Shown: positions 1-17,095 of the stretch, in pieces
Numbering within the stretch: position 1 is the stretch's first letter
How the letters are laid out: each line of letters starts with the position of its first letter
IMG/VR virus record: IMGVR_UViG_3300036770_008729
Span: 1-31,358 of that record
Source: a virus
Reading direction: 5' to 3' (one strand)
Length of the DNA stretch: 31,358 nt
Position numbers and translations under genes: made by a program
The notes under the pieces: generated by a model
Seen by the model: only the letters and a program-made list of their open reading frames with translations
What the model was told of the DNA's origin: nothing
Databases searched by the model: none

Positions 1-354
1 AGAACCAGATGTTCCGCTACCAGATGTTCCAGAAGTGCCATTGGATCCGGATGTTCCAGATGTTCCACTAGAACCAGATGTTCCAGAAGTGCCATTAGAA
101 CCAGAAGTCCCAGAAGTGCCATTAGATCCGGATGTTCCGCTAGAACCAGATGTTCCGCTAGAACCAGATGTTCCACTAGAACCAGAAGTCCCAGAAGTAC
201 CATTAGATCCGGATGTTCCAGATGTTCCACTAGAACCAGAAGTCCCAGAAGTACCATTAGATCCGGATGTTCCAGATGTTCCACTAGAACCAGATGTTCC
301 AGATGTACCATTGGATCCGGATGTTCCAGATGTACCATTGGATCCGGATGTTCC
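1..354 (-). repeat. Collagen-like Gly-X-Y coding repeats
   Basis: Nine-base units (reading GGA ACA TCT or GGT TCT AGT on the minus strand) encode GTS, GSS and GSN triplets. Near base 14-21 one codon is missing relative to sister units (cgctacc instead of cgctagaacc), which breaks the Gly-X-Y register once. None of the triplets contains proline. The plus-strand frame across this repeat, rich in Pro, Asp and Val, is a shadow. Confidence 0.9.
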
Positions 355-768
355 TGGTGGTGAGTATGTCCAACTAGCATTACCCTGTGAATCACTTATT
401 AAAAAATAACCTTGACTAGCACCTGTTGGTATTTGTAGTTGTGATAAAGTTGCCCCGCCAGCCCTGATATTAGAATAAGCTAAAGGTATCACACTTCCTA
501 AAGTAGTGTGATCATTGTTTGTAGATATAAACGTCCAAACATCTTCCGTTTCATTCCAAACTATACCTTGTGTTGCTGCGAGTGGTCCTCTGTCTACAAA
601 AATACCAGCATCAAAATAAGGTCCAGATTGACTATGTGCCAAAACTATAATAGGATCTTGTACGGTCAAACTTGTTGAATTTATAATTGAATAAGAACCA
701 ATTATTGAAAAACTACCCGTAATTAGAACATCACCATTTATTTCTGTATTTCCGTATATCTTTGGCAT
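1..768 (-). CDS. Collagen-like phage tail-fibre protein, C-terminus beyond the window
   Basis: The frame stays open from an ATG at 768 to base 1 (256 codons seen), so the C-terminus is missing. Residues 1-138 form a non-repetitive head. It contains a stretch (VQDPIIVLAHSQSG, then AGIFVDRG, then IVWNETEDVW) of the kind found at the N-termini of fibre proteins of marine T4-like phages, where it probably joins the fibre to the tail. From residue 139 onward the chain is almost only Gly-X-Y triplets (GTS, GSS, GSN), a collagen-like rod that should trimerise. It starts 17 bases after the 1,039-aa fibre gene stops and has no promoter of its own that I can see, so it is probably co-transcribed with it. 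The receptor-binding tip would lie past the edge. Fibre role is inferred from composition, family-type motif and neighbour. Confidence 0.8.
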   Translation of the reverse strand, partial: MPKIYGNTEINGDVLITGSFSIIGSYSIINSTSLTVQDPIIVLAHSQSGPYFDAGIFVDRGPLAATQGIVWNETEDVWTFISTNNDHTTLGSVIPLAYSNIRAGGATLSQLQIPTGASQGYFLISDSQGNASWTYSPPGTSGSNGTSGTSGSNGTSGTSGSSGTSGTSGSNGTSGTSGSSGTSGTSGSNGTSGTSGSSGTSGSSGTSGSSGTSGSNGTSGTSGSNGTSGTSGSSGTSGTSGSNGTSGTSGSGTSGS

Positions 769-785
769 ATTAGTTTGTATTTTTT

Positions 786-3700
786 TTAACCTATAATAAT
801 TGTTTTTACATTAGTTAATGTCGAACTAAAAATTATATCAACTGAACCAGTTCCTGTTATTTGAATATTTCCTGGTATAATCATTTGTCCTGTGCTATCA
901 AAAGTCTGAACAAAAACATCTTCTGTTCCAAGATTGTGTGTTATACTTTCAGTGACACTTGCTGTAAATGTTCTCAAATCTTTGTGTTTTTTTGTTAGAC
1001 CTAAACTCGTAGAAGATGTCCAACTACTTAATCCACTACCGTCAGTTGTCAGTAAATATCCATTAACACCAGAGTTATTCGGTAGTGTATATGAGTTATT
1101 TATCACTACTGATTGTCCTAAATTAATACTCGATGCACTTAATGTTATCGTAGATGCATTAGTAATAGTAAAATCAAAAGACACCGCATCAATAGAAGTA
1201 TTTTGCAAAAAGGAACCTCCAATTCCATATACATTCGTAGATATTTGTGAAATACCGTTATCAAAAGTTCCTGTGAATCCAGTAGTCGTTTGAAATATAG
1301 ACGAGTTCACTCTCCATCTATTTTCGATAGTTTCATAGACTAGTTCTATACTCTCATCATCGGAAACTACCAAATCTGTTCCTGCATTACCAGTTATGAT
1401 TCTATTAGATGATAAACTCGAACTATTGTTGTGTTGAATTATTATATCATCCGGTCCTGTGTTTGTAATCGTTAATCTTTTCCCGATATAACCATCACTA
1501 AATCCTGTTATATAAACAGGTGATCCAGATGAGTTTTCTACTACTATATAAGATGTATCTGATGTTGAATAGTTATTGTAGGTTCCAGTAAGGTTTTGAA
1601 TAGAACTATGTCTTGTCGCTAAATCTCCTGATACATCAAGTCTAGTATTAGGAACTAAATTATTTATTCCTATCTTTCCACTAGAGTCAGCAACTATTCT
1701 GATATTACCACTTCCATTACTTATAAAAATAGAACCAGTAGTTCCAGCAGAAACTGTTATGTTTGATCCAACAAATGTGTTATTACTTCCTGATGTTAAT
1801 CCTCTTCCTGTATTATAACCTAAGAATGTATTGTTATTACCAATAATACTTTCATATCCAGCATAAGCACCTATAGCAGTGTTATTACTTCCTATCGTAT
1901 TTCCGAAAAGAACCTCGTGACCAATTGTACTGTTATTAGAAGATGTGGCTGATGAATAGAGACCTCTTGTTCCTACTGATACATTATTACCACCTCTCAA
2001 ACTATAAGAGTTTTGTAGACCTACTGATACATTGGATGTTCCCGTTCTATTGTCAAATAATGACTGGTAACCAATAGAAACATTAAATGATCCTGTCGTA
2101 CTGTTGTAGGAAGATTTATATCCTACAGCAACATTACTTAATCCAGTGCTACTAAAATATAAAGACTGATTTCCAATTGCAACTGTATTAGTTCCTGTCG
2201 TATTAGTTCTCAATGAGTCAGATCCAATAGAGACATTTTCAAATCCTGTAGTGTTAGAATATTGAGAGTAATATCCTATGGCTACATTATCATTACCTGT
2301 AGAATTGGTTCTTAATGATAATACACCAATAGCAACATTTTGATATCCTGTATTATTAAGTTGAAGTGAACTAAGTCCAACTGCTGTATTATTACCACCA
2401 GAACCGTTACTTCTCATTGAATTTCTTCCAATAGCCGTGTTATTTATTCCACTAGATGTAGAGGAATTGATAGCTTCGAATCCAAATACCGTATTAGTTG
2501 ATATATTTGAAGATCCCCTACCTGCATAAACTCCGTTTATAGACATATTTGTTGAGGTGCTTGCAGTTCCATCATCAAAGAAGGATGAAGTTGAAGACAG
2601 TGAAGTTGATCCTGTCCATTTCGGTAAAAAATTAACAGTTCCTGTTCCTGTAACATTTGTTGCAAAAACACTATCAACATATCCTTTAGTAGGAATGGAT
2701 AAAGAATCCCATCCAGGTTGAGTAGAAGGTTGAACTGTATATTTACCTAAAACATCTCCTTGTAGTTGAATATTACTTGTGTATAAAGTATTAGATTGAG
2801 TAGCTGAAATATTAGAACCACCAATTATCACTGAATTAGTTATACCTGAATTAAATGATGAATTTCTACTTCCAACAAAAATTGGATTTTTATCAGTATT
2901 GGAAGATGTTGATGATATTAAATTAGTAGATACTAATATATCATCATTATTTATTCCAATTGAAACTGAAGATTGAGTAGTAGAAGAAGGAGTTGCAAAA
3001 ATTTGAACTAATTTTTCTCCCAAAGAAATTGATTCACCTATTCCATTTTCTAAAACTAATTGATTTGCAACTATACCTAAATCTATTTTAGAATTACCTG
3101 ATGTTGATTTTATAAATTGACCAGATTGTATAATAATATCGTTTGCTCCGGTTGTTGCTCCTACCGCTAAAACAGTAGCTAAATTAGGTGATGAATTTTC
3201 ATTTTGCCAAGTTACATTTCCTAATCCATCTGTTTTAAGAATTTGATTTGATGAACCATCTGATGATGGTAATCTATATTGTCCGTTAATATTTACTGTG
3301 TTACCTAAGTAGACTGTATTTGATTGAGTTGCTGTTAGAGTAGTTCCTCCAATTATTACGGAATTTGATACACCAGCATTAAATGACGAATCTTTAGTTC
3401 CTATGAATACCGCGCTTCTATCATTAGAGTTTACACTTCTTGAAAAGAATGCATTTTCTTTTATGGATATTTCTTGATATTTATCTGAATTAAAATTATA
3501 AGAAACACCTATGTTAATTTCTCTATCTAAACCAGTTGATTTTAAGTTTATATTTTTAGAATTCAAATCTATCAATGATTCCTGATTTGTTCCATTATCT
3601 GAACTTAAATAAATATGACTTTCTGTTGCTAAAGAAAAGAATACTTTAGATGTTCCATAATCTGAAACTATTCCTGTTCCTGATGCAACTATCAAATCAT

Positions 3701-3905
3701 TAGTTCCTGTTGTGTTACCAACTGATAAAACTGATGAAAGAGAAGGAGTTGATCCTATTCCTCCTGAACCAGCTATCGGAGTAACAACTCCAAATTGATC
3801 TTTTTGCTTGATTATACCATCTAGATCATATGCCACTGTATACCCATTGGATGGTGTGGCGACCGTTGTCATGTCTACAAGATTATTAAATATAACGTAA
3901 CTCAT
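786..3905 (-). CDS. Long tail-fibre / receptor-binding protein with beta-roll repeats
   Basis: 1,039 aa. After a short N-terminus come two related modules, starting near residues 52 and 240 (TPSLSSVLSVGNTTGTNDL and SPNLATVLAVGATTGANDI). Each carries an SNSVIIGG motif. From about residue 470 to 710 there are a dozen or so ~20-residue repeats of the type NTAIGxxSLxxNxTGxxN, the pattern of trimeric beta-roll heads seen in YadA-like adhesins and in Bacteroidetes phage fibres. A region beginning TRLDVSGDL follows. The last ~60 residues (SITHNLGTEDVFVQTFDSTG onward) match the C-terminal tip common in tail fibres. There is no signal peptide, as expected of a virion protein. It heads the fibre pair with the downstream collagen-like gene and has an AATATATA box 21 bases before the ATG. 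Receptor binding is inferred. Confidence 0.85.
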   Translation of the reverse strand: MSYVIFNNLVDMTTVATPSNGYTVAYDLDGIIKQKDQFGVVTPIAGSGGIGSTPSLSSVLSVGNTTGTNDLIVASGTGIVSDYGTSKVFFSLATESHIYLSSDNGTNQESLIDLNSKNINLKSTGLDREINIGVSYNFNSDKYQEISIKENAFFSRSVNSNDRSAVFIGTKDSSFNAGVSNSVIIGGTTLTATQSNTVYLGNTVNINGQYRLPSSDGSSNQILKTDGLGNVTWQNENSSPNLATVLAVGATTGANDIIIQSGQFIKSTSGNSKIDLGIVANQLVLENGIGESISLGEKLVQIFATPSSTTQSSVSIGINNDDILVSTNLISSTSSNTDKNPIFVGSRNSSFNSGITNSVIIGGSNISATQSNTLYTSNIQLQGDVLGKYTVQPSTQPGWDSLSIPTKGYVDSVFATNVTGTGTVNFLPKWTGSTSLSSTSSFFDDGTASTSTNMSINGVYAGRGSSNISTNTVFGFEAINSSTSSGINNTAIGRNSMRSNGSGGNNTAVGLSSLQLNNTGYQNVAIGVLSLRTNSTGNDNVAIGYYSQYSNTTGFENVSIGSDSLRTNTTGTNTVAIGNQSLYFSSTGLSNVAVGYKSSYNSTTGSFNVSIGYQSLFDNRTGTSNVSVGLQNSYSLRGGNNVSVGTRGLYSSATSSNNSTIGHEVLFGNTIGSNNTAIGAYAGYESIIGNNNTFLGYNTGRGLTSGSNNTFVGSNITVSAGTTGSIFISNGSGNIRIVADSSGKIGINNLVPNTRLDVSGDLATRHSSIQNLTGTYNNYSTSDTSYIVVENSSGSPVYITGFSDGYIGKRLTITNTGPDDIIIQHNNSSSLSSNRIITGNAGTDLVVSDDESIELVYETIENRWRVNSSIFQTTTGFTGTFDNGISQISTNVYGIGGSFLQNTSIDAVSFDFTITNASTITLSASSINLGQSVVINNSYTLPNNSGVNGYLLTTDGSGLSSWTSSTSLGLTKKHKDLRTFTASVTESITHNLGTEDVFVQTFDSTGQMIIPGNIQITGTGSVDIIFSSTLTNVKTIIIG
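1765..2498 (-). repeat. NTAIG-type beta-roll coding repeats in the long fibre
   Basis: Roughly a dozen imperfect ~57-63-base units encode N[TV][AS][IV]G followed by SL and TG motifs. Unit ends are approximate. Repeats of this type form left-handed trimeric beta-rolls in autotransporter heads, and units may be gained or lost by recombination. Confidence 0.75.
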
Positions 3906-6570: not shown

Positions 6571-7074
6571 TTAATTCTCTTTCCAATCATCTCTATTATT
6601 TAGAAATCTTAAATCATTGGTTGTTATATTGATATTTTTGAAGTGATTAAAAAAATCAACTAATTTTTCAACTGATTCATCTGTGAAAGAAAATATACAA
6701 TCCTTACAATCCTTACAAAATTTAGTTCCGTATGTCATATTCTGGATCACATGAATTTTATTAGGTGGTTCTAAGCTAAATTCCGATACAACAAAATCAC
6801 CTAAAGTTATATCAACATCAAATCTTATACTTTTAGTTGTTGCATCTTGAACAGTGTATAAATCAATTTCAAGAGTATCAGTATATCCCCACTCATTTTC
6901 AGTATTTACATAAGTGATTTGAAACATATCGCTATTTTTCATAATATTACCTCTTTTGAATTTGTGAATTCCATATTCTTGAATAGTAAACTCTTCTGGT
7001 AATATTCTACTCAAATCTATATCATATATCATATTTGATTGAGAATAAGACTCGAATTTTTTTAAATATTTCAT
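6571..7074 (-). CDS. Tagged protein, paralogue of the 18695 gene, unknown function
   Basis: 167 aa from the ATG at 7074. An upstream in-frame ATG at 7134 exists, but 7074 is preferred because TTAATATATA lies five bases before it and the protein then starts MKYLKKFESYS, like MKYIKTFERYN (14855) and MKYLRTFIENA (18695). The C-terminal ~95 residues match the 18695 product: FSLEPPNKIHV versus FSIEPPNKINV, and TDESVEKLVDFFNHF versus KDESVKDLVNFFNAF, each ending in a short LRFLNN / LAFLDE stretch. A CKDCKDC cluster near residue 120 is absent from the paralogue. Function is not recognised; the N-terminal peptide suggests a packaged internal protein. Confidence 0.8.
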   Translation of the reverse strand: MKYLKKFESYSQSNMIYDIDLSRILPEEFTIQEYGIHKFKRGNIMKNSDMFQITYVNTENEWGYTDTLEIDLYTVQDATTKSIRFDVDITLGDFVVSEFSLEPPNKIHVIQNMTYGTKFCKDCKDCIFSFTDESVEKLVDFFNHFKNINITTNDLRFLNNRDDWKEN

Positions 7075-7089: not shown

Positions 7090-7153
7090 TTTTCTCTTTA
7101 TTATATTTTTCGTTATTTCGATTGTGTTAAACAAAATTTGACAATTTTTATAT

Positions 7154-7252
7154 AATATATAGTTTTATATGCTTTATGCTAATTAACTCGACCGGCCCAT
7201 GGTAGATGGGGGTTCCTGAAAAGGTTCTTCAATAGAGTAAAAAATATATTTG
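7154..7252 (+). promoter_or_regulatory. AATATATA box and GC-rich leader of the giant adhesin gene
   Basis: AATATATA lies at 7154-7161. The next ~90 bases precede the start codon and include a GC-rich block (7190-7216) unlike the surrounding AT-rich DNA. In it CCCAT (7196-7200), loop GGTAG and ATGGG (7206-7210) form a hairpin. A second box-like AATATATT sits at 7243-7250, two bases before the ATG pair. The gene may thus have a structured leader; start site unknown. Confidence 0.4.
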
Positions 7253-10200
7253 ATGATGAAATTTTTCAAGTACATATTTTTATCTCTGATAACCTTGTTA
7301 TCTATAAATTCTTTTTCACAAACCGCAATGCCTGCTTCTGGCACTAATGTTGGTGCATCATCGGGTAGTTGGCTAGTTCCTGCCAATGTTTATTCAATAG
7401 AAATTGATGCTTGGGGTGGTGGTGGAGCTGGTGCTGGTAAATCGACCTCAGGGACTGGTGGTTTAGCTGGTGGTGCAGGTGGATCAAGATCTACAACAAC
7501 AATTTCAGTAACACCTGGTCAAATCATATATTTTAGAGTGGCAGCCTCTAGACCCGGAACTACAGGAAATGCAGCAAACGGAAATGATACCTGGGTCAAT
7601 AAGTCATTAAATTCCGCACCTACATCTTCAACCGATGGTGTTGTCGCTAAAGGTGGGGCTAGTGCAGTTGGAACTGCTGCTGGTGTTGGTTCAACAACAG
7701 GATGTATAGGAACATCTAACCAAGGTGGTAGTGGTAGAGTCGGTGGTGTAACTGCTGGTGGTGGAGGTTCTGGTGCCGGTACGAACTTAGATGGTAATGA
7801 TGCCACAGGAACTGCTGGTGCGACCGCTCCTGCTGGTGGTGGTAATGGTGGTAATGGTCACTCATCTGGTGGTGCGGGTTCTGCTGGTTCAATTCCTGGT
7901 GGAGGAGGTGGTGGTGCCTATAAAAACAATAACACATCAAGAAGTGGAGGAGCTGGGGCAGCTGGTAGGGTTATACTTACTTATTTAGCTATTCCTAATT
8001 GTGCCTCTCTTAATGCACCATCAAACAATTCAACTGGTATTTCAACAAATCAAGTACTTAGTTGGGCTGCTGTTAGTGGTGCTACAAGTTATGATGTTTA
8101 TTTTGGTACAAGCTCTACTCCGCCTTTTGTTATAAATCAAACAGGAACATCTTATACTCCTACATTATCATATTCAACTCAATACTATTGGAAGGTAGTT
8201 GCTAAAAACTCAGCCGGTGATGCCTTAAGTTGTTCTACTTGGAACTTTACAACAAAAGATCCTGGTTGTCTTTCAGCAACCTACGGTCAGTATCCTAGTA
8301 CTACATATACACCATCTTGTATGGGAACCGTTGAGAATATAACTACTACTGGATATGCTAGTGAGTATTCGGTTGTTAGTTTACAAAATGGTGAAACTTA
8401 TACATTTTCTTCATCTAATTCTACTGATTTTATAACTATTTCTAATTCTGCTGGAACGACTGTTTTAGCATATGGCACAACACCTGTTTCGTGGACTTCT
8501 AATTTAACTGGAAATGTTAGATTTTATACACACACAAATGAGGCTTGTGGTTCTTCTACTACTGGTCGAACTAGAAGAGTTCAGTGTTCGATACCACCAC
8601 TTTGTACTTCTCTAATCTCACCTTCTGATGGATCTACTGGTCAGAGTATTGGTACTCAACTTTCTTGGCAATCTGTTTCTAATGCGAATAGTTATGATGT
8701 ATATTTTGGAACATCATCAAATCCACCTTTTATACAGAATCAGACAGGTACAACTTACTCCCCTTCATTGTCATATAATACTACCTACTACTGGAAAATA
8801 GTTCCTAAGAGTTCTGTTGGTAGTGCTACTGGTTGCTCAGTATGGTCTTTCACCACTGGTGGTCCTGGTTGCTTAAATTCTACTTATGGACAATATCCAA
8901 CATCGGTGTATAATCCAGGATGTACTGGAACACCCGAGAATATAACAACTGCTGGCTATGCTGGTGAATATTCTATGGTAACTTTAATTAGTAATGTTAA
9001 TTATACATTCTCGTCTTCTGTTGCTACTGATTTTATAACAATTAGTGATGAGTTAGGAACAACAATACTGGCTTATGGTACAGGTAGTGTTTCTTTTACT
9101 TGTCTTACTGATGGTAATTACAGATTTTATACTCACACTGATAATGCCTGTGGTTCTTCGAGTACTAGTAGAGTTAGAAGAATCCAATGTTCTACTCCAC
9201 CCCCACCGGCTAATGATTTAATTGCAAATGCACAAGATGTTGGTTTATGTGGTGGATCGTTTAATGGCAATACTAAGTTTGCTACAAATTCCGGAGATGG
9301 ACCAAGTTGTTGGACGGCTCCTTCTGAAAATTGGACAGCACCTGGTGTTTGGTACACGGTGGTTGGAAATGGTCAGAACATAACAGCATCTCTTTGTGGT
9401 TCTAATTATGATACCAAGCTATTTATTTATACAGGAACACCTGGTAGTTTGACTTGTCTTACTTACAATGATGATTTTTGCTCAACTCAATCACAAGTTA
9501 CGTTTTCATCGACATTAAATACTACTTATTATATGTTGGTTACTGGATATGGATCTGCAAAAGGTGCTTTCACATTTTCAGTAAGTTTGGATCCATCGGT
9601 TCCTGTTATATCAACAAATCCAACAAACAGCACAATTTGTCCAGGTTCAAGTTGGACATTTTCAGTTATCGCCTCTGGTAATCAAGGCCCTCTTTCTTAT
9701 CAATGGTATTTAGATGGAAATGTAATTAGTGGTGCTACTCAATCTACATATGATGCTTCGACTGCTGGTACCTACTATGTTATTGTTTCTAATAGTTGTG
9801 GTGCTACAACTCAATCAAGTAATGCTACATTAAGTTTATTTACTTTACCTACTATTACTGTTAATTCTCCTGAAATTTGTTTTGGTAATTCTACTACAAT
9901 TATTGCTTCTGGTGGCACTTCTTATAGTTGGTCAACCGGTGCCACTACCAGTTCAATATCTGTTAGTCCTATTTCAACAACTAATTATATTGTAACTGGA
10001 ACTGATGTGAATGGATGTCAGAATACAGCAACTTCAACAGTAACTGTAAATCCTAATCCATTAGTATCTCTAAACACACTATCAAGTACTATTTGTTCTG
10101 GTGGATCCGGTACTAATAACATTACAGCTACTCCGTCATCCGGTAATCCAACATATAATTATCAGTGGCAGTATTTTAATGGTACTTCTTGGGTTAATAC

Positions 10201-13200
10201 CGGTACGAATGTTAATACATTGAATGCTACTCCAAGCGCAACTAGAGAATATAGAGTTGTTATAAATGATAGTAAATCTTGTTTGGTAACTTCATCTTCT
10301 CATACGGTTACTGTGGTTCCTGATCCTATAAATCCTACATTAAATACAAAGAGTCCAAATCAAAATGATATTTGTGTTGGTACTGGAGTATCTGCTACTT
10401 TTAATTCGGGTAGTGATGGTGTTGGTTGTCAAGATATTTTTCAATATTCAATAAATAGTGGAATTAGTTGGTCTAGTTATAATCCAGGAAATACAATTTC
10501 AACATCTGGTCTAACACAAGGAACGACTGTTCAGATTAGAGGTCGTAGAGGTAATTGTAGTACTGGTATAGGGTGTTCTAATAATGCTTATGATGTATTA
10601 GTTCAGTGGACTATAGTGACTCCTCCGATTCTTTCAACAAACGTTTCTGACGTAAGTTGTAATGGTGGAAATAATGGTAACATTAATCTTACCGTATCTG
10701 GATCTGTTGGTCCTTTCTCATTTAATTGGTCAGGTCCAAATGGATTTACTTCAACTCTTGAAGACCTATCAAATGTAGAGGCTGGTAGCTATACAGTTGT
10801 TGTTTCTACACCAAGTGGTTGTCAGTCTACTACTTCAATTACAGTATCTCAGCCAAGTAATATGGTATTAACTATTGTTGGTCAAAATGTTGCTTGTAAT
10901 GGTGGTAGTTCCGGTAATATCGACTTGACTGTTAGTGGTGGTACACCTACATATACTTATTCTTGGTCTAATGGTGAGACAACTGAAGATATATCAAATT
11001 TAAGTCCTGGCTCATATACTGTAAACGTTAGTGATGCGAACGGTTGTATTGCAACATCTACAGTGTCAATATCTGAACCTTCTTTACCAATTAGTTTATC
11101 AAATACAAATCAAAATGTCCTATGTAATGGTGGTAGTGATGGTTCAATTGATCTTAATGTATCTGGTGGTACACCAGGTTATACTTATTCCTGGTCAAAT
11201 GGACAAACATCAGAGGATATTTCTGGATTGATTGCGGGAACATATTCTGTTTTGGTAACAGATTTCAATGGATGTACATCTACACTTACAACTACAATTT
11301 TACAACCATCCGCTTTAAGTAGTTCTGTCGCTGTCTATAATGTAAATTGTTATGGTCAAAATACTGGTTCAATTAACTTGACTGTTTCAGGTGGGACACC
11401 TGGTTATACTTATTTATGGTCAAATGGGCAAACATCAGCTTATGCAACGGCATTGGGAGCTGGTACCTACTCTGTGTTAATAACAGATGTTAATGGTTGT
11501 CAATCAACTAATAATGCTACTATAACTCAACCTACTTTATTGGTTGCATCTCATACTAAGGTCAATCTTACTTGTTATAATTCAAATGATGGCTCTATAA
11601 CAGTTACTGCTTCTGGTGGTACACCTCCATATACTTATGGTTGGACAAATGGTATGACAGGATCTACTATTTCTAATTTACCAGCTGGTAATTACACATC
11701 ATATGTTTCTGATTCAAAAGGTTGTACTAAATTACAAACTATAAATGTCTCACAACCCTCTGTTCTTTCTTCAAGTGTTAATAGTCCTACAATATCAACT
11801 TGTCAGACAACACCAGTTGTTATTACAGCTTCTGTTATAGGTGGAACTGCTCCATATACATATTTATGGTCTACTGGAGCAACTACTAATACAATTTCTG
11901 TTTTACCTACACAAACTACATCTTATACTATTCAAATTACTGATTCTAAAGGATGTGTTAATAATAATATCGCTACGGTAACTGTCAGTCAAACGGTTGG
12001 ACTTCCTATTGTAGGTTCGGTTTCTGGACCAACACAGGCCTATAATTATATGTTAAATGGATCTTCTGCTACTTATTCAGTTAATCCTGTTCCTGGTGCT
12101 ACTAGTTATATTTGGTATATACCAAACAATGGCGTTTGGGTTATCGGTAATAACACATCAAATATATTGACTGTTCAATTTCAATCTTATTTCACTGGTG
12201 GTGATTTTTATGTTGCAGCTCTTGATGGTTGTTCTATTAGTTATTCTGATACATTAAATGTTTCTATTTTAGATAATCCAATTATTGCCGGTTCATCTTG
12301 TGGAATACCTTCGGGTTCAATAAAGACCTACTATGTTTCAAATTCAATTCCTGGTTTAACTTATAATTGGACACCACCTTATGGTTCGGTCATTCTTTCT
12401 GGTCAGGGTAATGATACTGTTCAAATTAAATATAGTTCTTATTTTCAATCACAATCTCAATTATATGTTAATACATCTACGATATATGGTGTATTCACCG
12501 GGGAAAAGGAAATACTAAGAAACGCTTCATCACCAACTGCGATTTTAGGACCTCAATCTATTTGTGCGGATGGAACAACTATTTATGAATATTATGTTGA
12601 TTCTGTGGCTACTGCTACATCCTATATTTGGGGTGTGCCAAATGGAGTTAGTATCGTTAGTGGTCAAAGTAATGATACCATTCAGGTTAGATTTAGTACT
12701 TCATATATTGGTGGTAATTTTAGCGTGATGTCTGTAAATCAATGCGGATCTTCTCCTATGAGATATGGAACAGTTTCTAATAGTAATCAACAATTTTATC
12801 CTGGTACTATTTCTGGGCCAGGTGATCTGTGTCCTTATTTAGGAACTACAGTTACTTATAGTGTTCCTCTATCCGCAGGTTATACATATACTTGGTTAGC
12901 TCCTTCCGGTATGACAATTTTATCAGGTCAGGGAACAAATATAATAACATTACAAGTATCTAACTCTTTTACTTCTGGAACTTTGAGTGTGAAATTAAAT
13001 GAAGGTTGTGGTGATAGTCCATATTCTACTCGTAGTCTTTCAACTCAACAAACAAATATATCAGTTTCTCAAATACAAGGATTAACAAACCCTTGTTCAA
13101 TTGTTGGTACTGGTCAAACAACAACATATAGTATCACACCAATAAGTGGTGTAAACTATAACTGGTCTGTTCCGGTAAATGCTACAATAGTTTCTGGTCA

Positions 13201-14227
13201 AGGTTCAAATGTAATTAGTGTTAGTTTTCAATCCGGTTTTTCTGGAGGTGTGATAAGTGTGTTAGTTTCTGGTGGTTGTGCTAGTCCAATAACTGTGTCT
13301 AAAACTTTATCACTTGGATATCCTTCAATGACAATTCAGGGCACAAGATGTGTTGAAAATGGTTGGTCTTATAACTACTCGGTTTCTTTTCCTAGTATGG
13401 CTTATTATTATAATGTTCAGAGTTATACTTGGGTTCCACCTGCAAATGCAGTTGTTAGTAGTGGTCAGGGAACTCAAAGTGCGACTATAACTTATCCTTC
13501 AAACTTTGAGTCCAATTGTACAAACAATATGTGTGACTCAATTAAAGTATATGTTCAGTTTCCTTGTGGTGTGAAATTGGTAAAAATGAAAATTGGTATG
13601 ACAACTTATGCTGCTAGCTCAATTATTGGTCCACCTTCAACTTGTGGTCCAGATACTGTTATGTTGAATGTTGCGGTTCCTACACCAGTAAGAGCAACTG
13701 GTTATATTTGGGGTTATCCAAATGGTGCTCAATTTTTAAACCTTAATGGTGGTGGGTCTTCAAATGATACTATTTTTGCAAAGATTAATTCTACTTACTT
13801 TGGTGGTAGTTTTAGTGTTATGAGTTTTAATCAATGTGGTTCAACTCCAATGAGATATTTTACCTTACCAAAGGTTTGTCCTACTGCTATTATTATAAAT
13901 AATGATCCTGAGATATCTACTGATATAATAACTACGATGAATGATATTCTTTCGGATCCAGAATATTTGGAAAATCAAAAAAGACCTTTGGATTTTATAA
14001 CTTATCCAAATCCTGGTCAAAACATAATAAATCTTAGAATATTTAAAGGAAATTCACCTTACTATTTGATTCAAATAACTAATTTGATTGGTCAAAATGT
14101 TTATGCCAAATTACATGAGGCTGAAGATGTTATTGATATTTCTAAATTTGAAGAAGGAGTATTCTTTATTTCAATTCAGGATAATGAAGGAAATAAATTA
14201 ACTAAACAATTAGTTATTGAGAGATAA
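7253..14227 (+). CDS. Giant SprB-repeat adhesin-like protein with T9SS sorting domain
   Basis: About 2,324 aa; starts at one of two adjacent ATGs (7253 or 7256). Order of parts: Sec signal peptide (MKFFKYIFLSLITLLSINS, cleavage near SFSQ); Gly-rich domain (bases ~7360-7980); two copies of a ~200-residue module, each an Fn3-like domain (SYDVYFGTSS, TYYWK) plus a CGSS-containing beta domain (8000-9205); a PPC-like domain (~9210-9594); several Ig-like domains; five SprB-type repeats (10628-11761); a string of PKD-like domains with FGGSFSVMS-like ends (~12020-13890); and a C-terminal ~80-residue type A T9SS sorting domain (FITYPNPGQN to KQLVIER). Such proteins are exported by Sec, then moved to the surface by T9SS and often used for gliding or adhesion. 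Its presence among phage genes is highly unusual. Overlaps the convergent gene at 14214 by 14 bases. Confidence 0.9.
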   Translation: MMKFFKYIFLSLITLLSINSFSQTAMPASGTNVGASSGSWLVPANVYSIEIDAWGGGGAGAGKSTSGTGGLAGGAGGSRSTTTISVTPGQIIYFRVAASRPGTTGNAANGNDTWVNKSLNSAPTSSTDGVVAKGGASAVGTAAGVGSTTGCIGTSNQGGSGRVGGVTAGGGGSGAGTNLDGNDATGTAGATAPAGGGNGGNGHSSGGAGSAGSIPGGGGGGAYKNNNTSRSGGAGAAGRVILTYLAIPNCASLNAPSNNSTGISTNQVLSWAAVSGATSYDVYFGTSSTPPFVINQTGTSYTPTLSYSTQYYWKVVAKNSAGDALSCSTWNFTTKDPGCLSATYGQYPSTTYTPSCMGTVENITTTGYASEYSVVSLQNGETYTFSSSNSTDFITISNSAGTTVLAYGTTPVSWTSNLTGNVRFYTHTNEACGSSTTGRTRRVQCSIPPLCTSLISPSDGSTGQSIGTQLSWQSVSNANSYDVYFGTSSNPPFIQNQTGTTYSPSLSYNTTYYWKIVPKSSVGSATGCSVWSFTTGGPGCLNSTYGQYPTSVYNPGCTGTPENITTAGYAGEYSMVTLISNVNYTFSSSVATDFITISDELGTTILAYGTGSVSFTCLTDGNYRFYTHTDNACGSSSTSRVRRIQCSTPPPPANDLIANAQDVGLCGGSFNGNTKFATNSGDGPSCWTAPSENWTAPGVWYTVVGNGQNITASLCGSNYDTKLFIYTGTPGSLTCLTYNDDFCSTQSQVTFSSTLNTTYYMLVTGYGSAKGAFTFSVSLDPSVPVISTNPTNSTICPGSSWTFSVIASGNQGPLSYQWYLDGNVISGATQSTYDASTAGTYYVIVSNSCGATTQSSNATLSLFTLPTITVNSPEICFGNSTTIIASGGTSYSWSTGATTSSISVSPISTTNYIVTGTDVNGCQNTATSTVTVNPNPLVSLNTLSSTICSGGSGTNNITATPSSGNPTYNYQWQYFNGTSWVNTGTNVNTLNATPSATREYRVVINDSKSCLVTSSSHTVTVVPDPINPTLNTKSPNQNDICVGTGVSATFNSGSDGVGCQDIFQYSINSGISWSSYNPGNTISTSGLTQGTTVQIRGRRGNCSTGIGCSNNAYDVLVQWTIVTPPILSTNVSDVSCNGGNNGNINLTVSGSVGPFSFNWSGPNGFTSTLEDLSNVEAGSYTVVVSTPSGCQSTTSITVSQPSNMVLTIVGQNVACNGGSSGNIDLTVSGGTPTYTYSWSNGETTEDISNLSPGSYTVNVSDANGCIATSTVSISEPSLPISLSNTNQNVLCNGGSDGSIDLNVSGGTPGYTYSWSNGQTSEDISGLIAGTYSVLVTDFNGCTSTLTTTILQPSALSSSVAVYNVNCYGQNTGSINLTVSGGTPGYTYLWSNGQTSAYATALGAGTYSVLITDVNGCQSTNNATITQPTLLVASHTKVNLTCYNSNDGSITVTASGGTPPYTYGWTNGMTGSTISNLPAGNYTSYVSDSKGCTKLQTINVSQPSVLSSSVNSPTISTCQTTPVVITASVIGGTAPYTYLWSTGATTNTISVLPTQTTSYTIQITDSKGCVNNNIATVTVSQTVGLPIVGSVSGPTQAYNYMLNGSSATYSVNPVPGATSYIWYIPNNGVWVIGNNTSNILTVQFQSYFTGGDFYVAALDGCSISYSDTLNVSILDNPIIAGSSCGIPSGSIKTYYVSNSIPGLTYNWTPPYGSVILSGQGNDTVQIKYSSYFQSQSQLYVNTSTIYGVFTGEKEILRNASSPTAILGPQSICADGTTIYEYYVDSVATATSYIWGVPNGVSIVSGQSNDTIQVRFSTSYIGGNFSVMSVNQCGSSPMRYGTVSNSNQQFYPGTISGPGDLCPYLGTTVTYSVPLSAGYTYTWLAPSGMTILSGQGTNIITLQVSNSFTSGTLSVKLNEGCGDSPYSTRSLSTQQTNISVSQIQGLTNPCSIVGTGQTTTYSITPISGVNYNWSVPVNATIVSGQGSNVISVSFQSGFSGGVISVLVSGGCASPITVSKTLSLGYPSMTIQGTRCVENGWSYNYSVSFPSMAYYYNVQSYTWVPPANAVVSSGQGTQSATITYPSNFESNCTNNMCDSIKVYVQFPCGVKLVKMKIGMTTYAASSIIGPPSTCGPDTVMLNVAVPTPVRATGYIWGYPNGAQFLNLNGGGSSNDTIFAKINSTYFGGSFSVMSFNQCGSTPMRYFTLPKVCPTAIIINNDPEISTDIITTMNDILSDPEYLENQKRPLDFITYPNPGQNIINLRIFKGNSPYYLIQITNLIGQNVYAKLHEAEDVIDISKFEEGVFFISIQDNEGNKLTKQLVIER
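8000..9205 (+). repeat. Two tandem ~600-base modules in the giant gene
   Basis: Bases ~8000-8599 and ~8603-9205 encode parallel ~200-aa blocks. Both contain SYDVYFGTSS, YGQYP, ENITT, ATDFITIS or STDFITIS, and RFYTHT followed by ACGSS. Divergence is moderate, so the duplication is old. Confidence 0.85.
10628..11761 (+). repeat. Five SprB-type repeats
   Basis: Five ~75-residue units (residues ~1127-1504 counted from base 7250), each with a CNGG/CYG motif, a D or N-[GI]-x-[IL]-x-[LV] strand, SGGTPxYTYxWSNG, AGxYxVxVxDxxGC and a QPS end. This is the repeat of the flavobacterial gliding adhesin SprB. Confidence 0.85.
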
Positions 14228-14855
14228 ACTTTTTGTCAATTATAGCAAATGAGAAATGTTGTTTTGGTGGTAAAAAAACTATAGTTTTATCTAAAATACC
14301 TTCAAGTTTTTTTCTAATCTTATCCATGACAGATATGACATTGTCATACAAAGTTACATTCAGGTTTGTTTTTTGAACAAAAACAAAACAAGGAATCCAC
14401 CCTGAATTCAATAATTCTGGAATTTCTCTACTTTCTTCTTTTATTTTATCCTTAAAGTAACTAGAAATTGTAGGATTTTCAAACACACGAACCCAATCCA
14501 ATTTTTGATGTTTCATGCTCAATCCAACAAGAGCAGCATTAATAGATTTGAGGTACTTTAAGTCACCAATATTATTATTATTAAAATAGTCTTCAGTTCT
14601 TAAAAATTTTGTACTTAAAGTCTCACCGTTACATACTAAGTTTTGAAATCCAACTCCTGGTTTTAATAGGTAAGGACTTAAATAACCAATTGAAAATTCA
14701 GGAAATAAATCTTCTAAATCAACCAAACAATCAAAAGTATCTTCTATATTTAAATCATCAAAAGCACTTTCGATTATTTCAATACCGGATTCACAATCTT
14801 GAAGTTCAAGCTGTTCAATAAAATTATATCTTTCAAAAGTTTTGATGTATTTCAT
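14214..14855 (-). CDS. Tagged protein MKYIKTFE..., unknown function
   Basis: 213 aa, not recognised. Begins MKYIKTFERYN, the clearest copy of the shared N-terminal peptide. The rest is acidic in its first half (ESGIEIIESAFDDLNIED) and more hydrophobic and basic toward the C-terminus (TIVFLPPKQHFSFAIIDKKF). No membrane span. Its ATG is two bases after the stop of the 745-aa putative virion protein, so the two are translated from one mRNA driven by the TTAATATATA motif at 17100. That linkage supports a virion or packaged role. Its last 14 bases overlap the end of the giant adhesin gene on the other strand. Confidence 0.8.
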   Translation of the reverse strand: MKYIKTFERYNFIEQLELQDCESGIEIIESAFDDLNIEDTFDCLVDLEDLFPEFSIGYLSPYLLKPGVGFQNLVCNGETLSTKFLRTEDYFNNNNIGDLKYLKSINAALVGLSMKHQKLDWVRVFENPTISSYFKDKIKEESREIPELLNSGWIPCFVFVQKTNLNVTLYDNVISVMDKIRKKLEGILDKTIVFLPPKQHFSFAIIDKKFISQ

Positions 14856-14857
14856 AG

Positions 14858-17095
14858 TTATTCATTATATGGGAAATTCGGTAAATAAAGACGAGTAGTT
14901 GCATTGTCTGCAAAAACCAAGTATTTACTATCATCTCTAATAATATATTGATTACAAATCTTAGTGTGTTCAGATTCTGGTATAACATCTAAGAATACTC
15001 TTATGTTAGTTGCTTTCATATCAGAACCAAGTAACTCTGGATTTACTCCTTCCATCTCAAAGGTTATAGGAGTTATATCTTGTTCATTTTTATAAACTTG
15101 TTTCAATATCGTGTTTGTTAGTGTGGCTGCCTCTTCCTCCAGCTCTATATTTCTCTTATAGATGTATTGTTGCATTTTTCTCTGTCTTTGTTCTATATTA
15201 AGCACATAACAATACCATACTTCTTCATTAAGAGCATTTGTTTCATTTACAGGAACACCTGATAAATCAAAGTGGTAAGTTTCTGTGTTAAGAGTTACTA
15301 TAATAGTATCGTTTAGTAATTCAGCACTCCATCCTTTTGAGTTATCTTCATCATAATAATTAAAGAATGAATAGACTTCATCCATCACATAATTGTTAAG
15401 ATTGAACCAAATTTGAAAGCCAATATTATCTGAGACATCCAATTTTGGATCTAAGTTTTTATATCTTACCGCTGTTGTTCCCTGTTCAACGGTTGATAGA
15501 TCATAGTTAGCTTTAGCGATTATTGTAGATGAGTTTTCAATCAATTCCTTATTAATTTCTGCCATTATTTCTTGTCTAATAGGTTCCCTTGTAAGTGGTT
15601 TGAATTGGTCTTTATTAGCTATAGATGCTTTATCTTGAACATTTTCAACACCAAACAATTCATCAATAGTGCTATTCTTAGTGAGTTGGTCAAGTTTTGT
15701 CTGAATTTGTTGATTACCAGCAATAACATTTGCTTTCTGAGTGTATTTTTTCAATACAAGTTTATAATACACTGCTGAGTTATTGAAATTTCTAAATTGT
15801 TGAGCATGGTCAACTTGAAACATTCTATTCAAATTACAGAAATAAAGAAAATCCTCTTTTGATGGTCTTCTTTGTGGTCCAAATATCTCTTTGAATTGTT
15901 TTTTTGTAATGTGAACATTCATATTTTCAAATAAACTCAAATCAAATTGATTCATTACTATCTGACTATCTGGAAAGTTGTTACCATCTACTGATACTTT
16001 CATATCACCTTGACAGACTACATTGTATAATTGATATTCATGTAGAGTGTGGTCTTGGCCTTTTTTATCAGCGTCTGTGCAAAAATAAATTACTTGGTGA
16101 CCAAATACTTGCTCAGCATCAGAACTCATTTTATTTAAAAGATTAAATGCTGTATTTTGTTGATATGGATTGTAAAGTTTAGCCTTTTCATCAGCTGTCA
16201 TTTGAGGCAAACTATTAGGTGTCTCACATTGTCCACCTGAATTAGAAATCCCACCATTGTTAAGTGCTGGTATAAAATTTCCATTTGCATCGTAATATCC
16301 GGTCAAATTAGATTGACAACATTCTCTAATCCCATAAAGATTTGTTTTGAAATAGTCTTTACTAACATTTTGAAAATCACCTATTAGATTAATATCTTGA
16401 ATACTGACATTTGCATCAGAGTTGTTCTCAACTGAATATTCAATTTGAAAAAATCTAACTGGATTAATAGGAGTAGTGCTTATATTTTCTTTTGTAAATG
16501 GTTCCCAACTAGACCAGGTTCTAGAATTATCTTGTGAATATCTATATTTTATAGATACTCCAGCTGGTATTCCAGTTGATGAGATTATCTCTATATCATC
16601 TACCTTGAATACTTTAAATATATATGGAGCTTTGAAAATTTTACTTTGACCAGAAGATAAAACTATTGTACTTTCATCTGTGACAACATCTCTTTCTAGA
16701 TCGCCATTTAATTTATATTCTAACAGTCTTATATTTCCTACAGTTGAGTTTCCTCCTCTTGTCCATCTGATATCTATATTAAGTTTGTCTTTTGGATCTA
16801 CTACAGGAAAATTATCTATATTTCTTTTTAGGTCTAACCATTCTGTCCATTGAATTCCATTTCTTGATATCCTATATTCTTGTGATAGGAATCTATTATC
16901 GGTCATTCCTAATGTATCATATAAAAATAAATTAAATAATTTAACATTTTGTAAATCTGTAATACTTATTGTATATTGGTCTCCTATATTTGAAAATATT
17001 GGAGCAAAGTCGACAGATGATGTCGCCGATGTGATACTAAACTTGTATGATATAGAAATAGTACCATTTAGGTTATCAGTTGCAATATTAGGCAT
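14858..17095 (-). CDS. Putative virion structural protein, tail or baseplate
   Basis: 745 aa, no signal peptide. The N-terminal ~250 residues read as repeated beta-sandwich units with RISRNGIQWTEWLDL and YRYSQDNSRTWSSWEPF, a pattern seen where a fold is duplicated. The centre (about 260-480) has CCQSNLTGYYDANGNF and HVITYF-like segments plus helical parts. The last third (about 560-640) looks like a concanavalin/LamG-type beta-sandwich (IGFQIWFNLNNYVMDEVYSF, then WYCYVLNIEQRQ). These features suit a baseplate, neck or decoration protein. No family is firmly recognised. First gene of an operon with the tagged 213-aa protein; full TTAATATATA motif four bases upstream. Confidence 0.65.
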   Translation of the reverse strand: MPNIATDNLNGTISISYKFSITSATSSVDFAPIFSNIGDQYTISITDLQNVKLFNLFLYDTLGMTDNRFLSQEYRISRNGIQWTEWLDLKRNIDNFPVVDPKDKLNIDIRWTRGGNSTVGNIRLLEYKLNGDLERDVVTDESTIVLSSGQSKIFKAPYIFKVFKVDDIEIISSTGIPAGVSIKYRYSQDNSRTWSSWEPFTKENISTTPINPVRFFQIEYSVENNSDANVSIQDINLIGDFQNVSKDYFKTNLYGIRECCQSNLTGYYDANGNFIPALNNGGISNSGGQCETPNSLPQMTADEKAKLYNPYQQNTAFNLLNKMSSDAEQVFGHQVIYFCTDADKKGQDHTLHEYQLYNVVCQGDMKVSVDGNNFPDSQIVMNQFDLSLFENMNVHITKKQFKEIFGPQRRPSKEDFLYFCNLNRMFQVDHAQQFRNFNNSAVYYKLVLKKYTQKANVIAGNQQIQTKLDQLTKNSTIDELFGVENVQDKASIANKDQFKPLTREPIRQEIMAEINKELIENSSTIIAKANYDLSTVEQGTTAVRYKNLDPKLDVSDNIGFQIWFNLNNYVMDEVYSFFNYYDEDNSKGWSAELLNDTIIVTLNTETYHFDLSGVPVNETNALNEEVWYCYVLNIEQRQRKMQQYIYKRNIELEEEAATLTNTILKQVYKNEQDITPITFEMEGVNPELLGSDMKATNIRVFLDVIPESEHTKICNQYIIRDDSKYLVFADNATTRLYLPNFPYNE

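Follow-up and report, generated by a model that had tools for sequence, protein, structure and literature searches.

The DNA analysed here (the window) comprises bases 1-31358 of a virus record that is linear and 281,114 bp long. The plus strand of the window carries ORF8 (7253..14227), whose 2,324-aa product is predicted to be a secreted surface protein and has a T9SS sorting domain of type A. The ATG at 7253 was taken as the start, the ATG at 7256 being an alternative. From the N- to the C-terminus, the protein is made up of a signal peptide, a Gly-rich domain, Ig/Fn3-like repeats, SprB repeats, PKD_6 repeats and the sorting domain. The predicted Sec signal peptide, MMKFFKYIFLSLITLLSINSFS (7253..7318, plus strand), would be cut before a glutamine, which places Gln at +1 in line with the Bacteroidetes Q-rule (PMC5837995). 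This prediction comes from our own heuristic and not from SignalP, and it bears out the signal peptide that an earlier, sequence-only reading of this DNA had placed at the start of the gene. The adjoining Gly_rich_2 domain (7355..7984, plus strand; Pfam 4.8e-8) is in part weakly similar to the tip gene of an operon in related phages (35% over 77 aa).

Five SprB-type repeats had been claimed as well. With Pfam, the SprB family matches ORF8 in six stretches (4e-63), namely five full repeats (10634-10741, 10883-10981, 11102-11209, 11330-11434 and 11555-11659) and a partial one (11822-11884), the array as a whole covering 10634..11884 on the plus strand. PKD-like and Ig-like repeats had been claimed too: PKD_6 matches seven stretches (7.6e-46), the best of them at 12530..12763 (plus strand), and Ig/Fn3-like repeats are present, but the Pfam score of Ig_7 in ORF8 is under its cut-off.

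The proposed type A sorting domain (14003..14218, plus strand) scores above the curated cut-offs of both Pfam (Por_Secre_tail, 5.3e-9, 36.7 bits vs a cut-off of 27) and NCBIfam (TIGR04183, 28.9 bits vs a cut-off of 23), and a fold model agrees. The model was built from an alignment of nine phage sorting domains and predicts an Ig-like beta-sandwich of seven strands with a mean pLDDT of 93.6. In the PDB it comes closest to the cargo domain of NucA, bound in the T9SS translocon complex; other matches include the C-terminal domain of mirolase (8qb1) and the RemA and RemZ complexes, and among domains solved in T9SS complexes it matches 8glk_D (E 1.4e-4), 8gl6_D and 8gl8_D. No type B (CHU_C) sorting domain was found in ORF8, which is matched by type A models alone. 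ORF8 was also considered as an orthologue of SprB; the type A domain rules this out.

The contig and the slot that holds ORF8

Genes for a baseplate wedge protein, the large subunit of a phage-type topoisomerase II and a single-strand-binding protein were recognised on the contig, and the window itself has tail-fibre and virion-structural PHROG matches. ORF10 (14858..17095, minus strand; 745 aa) is a distant relative of neck proteins annotated in Tenacibaculum and Chryseobacterium phages, and is 65% identical in LR745206 (634,780 bp) and 62% identical in LR756502 (642,428 bp), both huge phages. A search with ORF10 matched 21 IMG/VR contigs of up to 508 kb. No terminase was detected in the window's contig, which is thus probably a fragment; four of the IMG/VR relatives (G002, G005, G020 and G021) do have a terminase, and sorting-domain genes occur in 4/4 of these. 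The phage hallmark genes, together with the relatives that have a terminase, rule out host contamination, and the suspicion that the DNA might be a chromosome can be dismissed on these grounds and on the presence of the neck-protein relative in huge phages. Judged by its gene content, the 281-kb contig belongs to the genome of a huge phage, of which it is one piece.

Two other regions of the contig stand out. A sugar/glycan island at C1:36606-49238 (L003:5606-18238) encodes a glycosyltransferase, a GHMP kinase, a cytidylyltransferase, two NAD-dependent epimerases, a nucleotidyltransferase and a HAD phosphatase, and may modify glycans of the virion or the host surface. At C1:88500-93200 (L005:17500 to L006:2200) three conserved genes lie side by side; their PHROG matches are of unknown function, and we take the genes to resemble PrkA kinase, YeaH and SpoVR, presumably an unusual set for a phage.

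ORF10 is the syntenic anchor beside a variable slot that holds ORF8. ORF8 occupies the strand opposite to ORF10, and one small ORF lies between them, ORF9 (14214..14855, minus strand; 213 aa), which belongs to a family with the N-terminal motif MKYIKTF and has no PHROG match. The opposite edge of the slot is formed by ORF7 (6571..7074, minus strand; 167 aa) of the MKYLKKF motif family, a relative of which is found across the slot in L025-L027. Flanking virion genes had been claimed for both sides of ORF8. This is correct on the right, where ORF10 is one small ORF away, but not on the left, where several unassigned or metabolic genes separate ORF8 from the nearest virion-like gene, which encodes a 1,039-aa repeat-rich virion-structural protein (786-3905, minus strand). 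A collagen-like tail-fibre protein with GTSGTSGS repeats (1-768, minus strand) runs off the end of the window.

N-terminal motifs of the MKxLKxF/Y type were found in 55 of the 384 called ORFs of the contig (for example 6571-7074 and 14214-14855 of the window). In 49 of these 55 an (L/F/T)xE-like site follows soon after the motif; the same pattern is absent at residues 31-60. We assume that this combination resembles the capsid-targeting propeptide of the T4 internal head proteins.

In three relatives (G004, G005 and G030) an operon of four secreted proteins lies directly downstream of the ORF10 counterpart. It encodes, in this order, a large type A protein, a tip protein, a 188-aa protein that we term the stalk and a type B protein of 189-190 aa; the tip protein of G004 and G005 consists of a glycine-rich domain and one SprB-like repeat. 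ORF8 lies in the corresponding interval of the window, which in other relatives is occupied by a tRNA synthetase or other genes.

The region upstream of ORF8 contains two elements that are motif matches only. TATATTTG (7245..7252, plus strand) abuts the start codon, and TAATATATA (7153..7161, plus strand), of a class seen upstream of many virion genes, is situated about 95 bp upstream. The -7 element of Bacteroidota promoters has the consensus TAnnTTTG, which TATATTTG fits. Across the contig, TATATTTG is often found about 12 nt before a called start, while the spacing of TAATATATA peaks at about 13 and at 27-34 nt before called starts, often those of virion genes. TAATATATA and TATATTTG may mark late and early promoters, respectively, some with very short leaders. 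For ORF8 itself the promoter reading is motif-based with mixed signals, and we count it against our best explanation.

SprB, PKD_6 and Por_Secre_tail are host-type domains, locally similar proteins occur in bacterial genomes and the viral scan found no orthologue of ORF8 in other phages, all of which would suit a captured host surface protein that travels as a passenger with no benefit to the phage. However, the composition of the gene is phage-like. Its GC content exceeds that of its neighbours only at codon positions 1 and 2, GC3 is 0.15 compared with 0.14 in the virion gene ORF1, and few long genes come closer to the phage average in codon usage. ORF8 is thus not an obvious recent import, and recent capture was rejected on GC3. 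In addition, the frame is intact over 7 kb, and a sorting-domain gene of type A or type B is kept in 8 of the 10 relatives that reach 150 kb or more, G008 and G014 being the two that have none.

The same-slot counterparts also argue against a passenger gene, since the slot-operon genes in the relatives are under purifying selection. Between G004 and G005, where synonymous sites are near saturation and dN/dS values are rough, the ratio was 0.09-0.10 for the last three genes and about 0.24 for the ends of the type A gene (operon range 0.09-0.25), with 0.18 for ORF10 and 0.14 for the peptidase gene ORF11 as comparison. We therefore regard a passenger gene as very improbable. ORF8 had only four local matches in the viral scan, of Fn3-like similarity, and only local similarity to bacterial genomes, from which no source organism can be named. 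With no orthologue in the collections searched, statements on constraint and phage enrichment reach ORF8 only by class; it shares with the relatives its class of sorting domain, its genomic slot and its modules. Sorting-domain genes as such do occur in relatives, and the earlier reading passes this test of its own along with those on the profile match and on the phage nature of the contig.

Sorting-domain proteins and a secreted trio in related phages

Two more sorting-domain proteins were identified on the contig: a second type A protein at 66270-70763 (1,497 aa, P-domain and PKD_6) and the type B protein ORF143 at 117360-120977 (1,205 aa, SprB repeats). By these assignments, the window's phage encodes at least three such proteins. 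The viral scan returned no relative of ORF76. Of the sorting-domain proteins in the relatives and LR756502, 22 were inspected, and 22/22 have a signal peptide at the N-terminus by inspection. This co-occurrence bears on the possibility that ORF8 is a head-decoration or tail protein, its SprB, PKD and Ig repeats being promiscuous phage Ig-like modules. In PHROGs the Ig/SprB repeats of ORF8 do score as Hoc-like decoration and also match tail proteins, and the neck-protein relative ORF10 is nearby. Virion assembly, however, is cytoplasmic, whereas ORF8 has export signals, and signal peptide and sorting domain are needed only for export; a virion component is thus hardly probable at all.

By our heuristic, 11 proteins of the contig look like clear substrates of signal peptidase I that have Gln at +1, the background frequency of Gln in N-terminal regions being 3.4%. 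This set leaves out the odd matches ORF47 and ORF328 as well as ORF200, whose match is open to doubt, given the histidine-kinase-type ATPase domain at its C-terminus. L009:7869-9356 (minus strand; C1:158869-160356) encodes a protein of 495 aa in which a hydrophobic N-terminus is combined with a histidine-kinase-type ATPase domain; a 53% identical relative lies near the ORF10 counterpart in G002. The product of L013:4857-5456 (plus strand; C1:235857-236456) is a secreted protein of the DUF4294 family (Pfam 1.2e-51), and its signal peptide follows the Q-rule.

Among 50,697 phage records, tblastn detected type B domains in the huge phages LR745206 and LR756502 and one short contig only, so no cultured phage with the set was found there. 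Several viral contigs encode proteins that consist of no more than a signal peptide and a bare type B domain. They are 111 aa long in G021, 116 aa in LR756502, 107 aa in L106 and in L114 and 109 aa in L118, and are located on separate contigs at L129:8036-8371 (minus), L138:9509-9859 (minus), L106:431-754 (plus), L114:1667-1990 (minus) and L118:6117-6446 (minus). A fold search with the type B mini-protein gave no PDB match below 1e-3, so the family assignment rests on sequence. The PorP/SprF shuttle (PF11751) had no match in the window's contig or in the related phages, with 8 and 9 matches in two Bacteroidota genomes used as controls; phage type B cargo would consequently have to borrow host shuttles and may exhaust them.

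The bare proteins are possible T9SS competitors. Phage sorting-domain proteins, above all those of bare type B, might fill limiting PorP/SprF-like shuttles or translocons of the host, with the result that SprB is not delivered, gliding stops and receptors vanish. The recurrence of such proteins at 107-116 aa and the lack of a phage-encoded shuttle speak for this. So do data from Flavobacterium johnsoniae, in which type B cargo needs a PorP/SprF-like shuttle that is scarce, and overproduced cargo needs an extra one (PMC12618676). PorV, the shuttle for type A cargo, is in apparent excess or recycled in the same species (PMC12618676), and the type A protein ORF8 should thus not titrate it. Furthermore, a minimal type B signal has been reported that exceeds the conserved domain in length, and a huge multidomain adhesin would be an odd decoy. 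As an explanation of ORF8, competition for shuttles appears improbable.

The last three genes of the slot operon (tip, stalk and type B anchor) form a trio that is also found elsewhere. A search with the stalk matched 57 viral contigs, and these loci together with six further loci gave 42 stalks after removal of identical sequences, a number that is an upper bound on independent cases because some contigs are close relatives. An IxH[ND] C-terminal end is present in 42/42 stalks and in 40/40 secreted upstream neighbours, and in 40 of 42 cases a type B gene follows the stalk, mostly with gaps of -1 to 19 bp. The secreted trio was seen in dozens of viral contigs (L198-L204, L209-L265) in varied genomic surroundings. 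In one contig type (L222) it is located between the genes for tail tube and baseplate hub, adjoining two tail sheath genes, and is thus wired into the structural module there. The N-terminal domain of ORF143 is also found on several tips (L198-L204, L247), which makes ORF143 a one-polypeptide version with tip, SprB stalk and type B anchor.

In 396 Bacteroidota genomes the stalk model retrieved no full-length stalk; its best scores were 59-61 bits inside larger proteins, compared with 276-312 bits in viral contigs. The N-terminal domain of ORF143 was likewise absent among the best few candidates per genome in the 396 genomes, a search with no built-in positive control. The families thus look phage-enriched and not freshly borrowed.

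We infer that the parts of the trio assemble and that IxHN takes part. Tentatively, and with less than even confidence, we propose that Bacteroidota phages own a surface-fibre system in which separately secreted tip and stalk subunits with IxHN/D tails assemble on a small type B anchor, itself placed on the infected cell by the host T9SS and a host SprF-like shuttle. Huge phages would have one-polypeptide versions (ORF143 and, more loosely, ORF8), and the bare sorting-domain proteins would compete for shuttles. If true, this would be a phage-specific organelle of the outer surface that controls further infection or cell attachment. Discussions of how phages control the outer surface of Gram-negative cells usually centre on small lipoproteins or glycan-modifying enzymes. 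With about 1.8 kb the trio is compact, and the bare sorting-domain proteins of 107-116 aa could serve to probe competition for T9SS shuttles.

Predicted export and purpose of ORF8

According to our preferred mechanism, ORF8 would be expressed during infection. Sec would export the protein and signal peptidase I would expose its N-terminal Gln, a step with strong sequence evidence. The SprA translocon and the PorV shuttle would recognise the type A domain, as computed from profiles and fold, and would carry ORF8 over the outer membrane. By analogy with type A proteins of F. johnsoniae, it would then be displayed statically on the infected cell, or shed from it, with the Gly-rich/Ig-like N-terminal part outermost. 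The idea that the phage makes its host display a surface protein is supported as a prediction by the signal peptide and the sorting domain, and we hold export and display to be very probable.

In F. johnsoniae, type A cargo is taken up by PorV and then fixed to the surface or released, and SprB fused to the type A domain of RemA is displayed but immobile (PMC12618676). This behaviour leads us to predict static display or shedding for ORF8; motile display would be possible only for type B proteins. A role of ORF8 in gliding, as had been suggested, is weakened by the immobile fusion and by the domain being type A and not type B.

ORF8 is likely to be one of a set of phage-encoded cargos of the host T9SS, which most likely remodels the surface of the infected cell, chiefly against the adsorption of competing phages and secondarily to alter adhesion. 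Taken separately, host-surface remodelling is probably the selected function, while superinfection exclusion in particular is a tentative suggestion, to which the position of the trio among late structural genes in tail-module contigs is a poor fit, as exclusion would act early. Displayed or shed fibres might instead glue infected cells to other hosts, to surfaces or to particles, which would let progeny emerge close to new hosts. Among the cargos of F. johnsoniae, those of type B are adhesins, known or predicted (PMC12618676), the tip domains vary on a conserved stalk and anchor, and the trio is found among late tail genes in one contig type. On the other hand, the Gly-rich tip of ORF8 bears only a weak resemblance to that of the relatives' tip gene, and adhesion in place of exclusion seems to us rather unlikely. 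We favour superinfection exclusion somewhat ahead of adhesion, with shuttle competition as a side effect or as the role of the bare sorting-domain proteins.

Comparison with known systems

The sequence-only reading had assumed that no phage protein normally uses the T9SS and that the strategy might be undescribed. This has to be corrected, as phage T9SS cargo already appears in PMC7468147 and in passages of PMC6949934. In the open-access literature, no paper was found on type B sorting domains in connection with phage, and T9SS cargo combined with prophage and superinfection led to Cryophage only. Cryophage encodes proteins with type A sorting domains that have been proposed to use the host T9SS and described as a 'unique occurrence', with superinfection control and competition suggested for the cargo (PMC7468147). 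The window's phage likewise has type A sorting-domain proteins in a true phage genome. The Cryophage cargo, however, consists of an endoglucanase, a GH39 hydrolase and a PA14 protein, all of type A (PMC7468147), whereas the proteins found here are SprB/PKD adhesins, belong to both types and occur in a huge-phage lineage as well as in many other viral contigs. T9SS sorting-domain genes have also been described near crAss-BACON tandem repeats in phage contigs, one of them fused to a repeat-rich ORF (PMC6949934); unlike here, those repeats are BACON, and the relevant passages contain neither a mechanism nor type B cargo.

Phages of more than 634 kb have been reported as predicted Bacteroidetes phages of the Mahaphage clade, in a paper whose main text leaves secretion and sorting domains unmentioned (PMC7162821). 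Huge phages of this clade and the window's contig have neck-protein relatives that are 62-65% identical and sorting-domain cargos of the same families, the contig differing in being a fragment without a detected terminase. Porphyromonas gingivalis phages also encode proteins with Q-rule signal peptides; T9SS and sorting domains are unmentioned in the main text of that report (PMC10367356). Like SprB of the sprCDBF operon of F. johnsoniae, ORF8 is a giant secreted surface protein with SprB repeats, and the type B domain at the end of SprB has counterparts at the ends of ORF143 and of the trio; unlike SprB, ORF8 has a type A domain and no accompanying SprF gene.

As far as our searches show, what is new is the presence of SprB-repeat adhesins and of type B cargo in phages, with several such proteins per genome in huge phages, together with the trio, its IxHN tails and its tail-module location, and the proteins made up of a signal peptide and a bare type B domain. 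Several large T9SS adhesins per genome and a trio in dozens of contigs would make T9SS export a common phage strategy, in contrast to the 'unique occurrence' of Cryophage.
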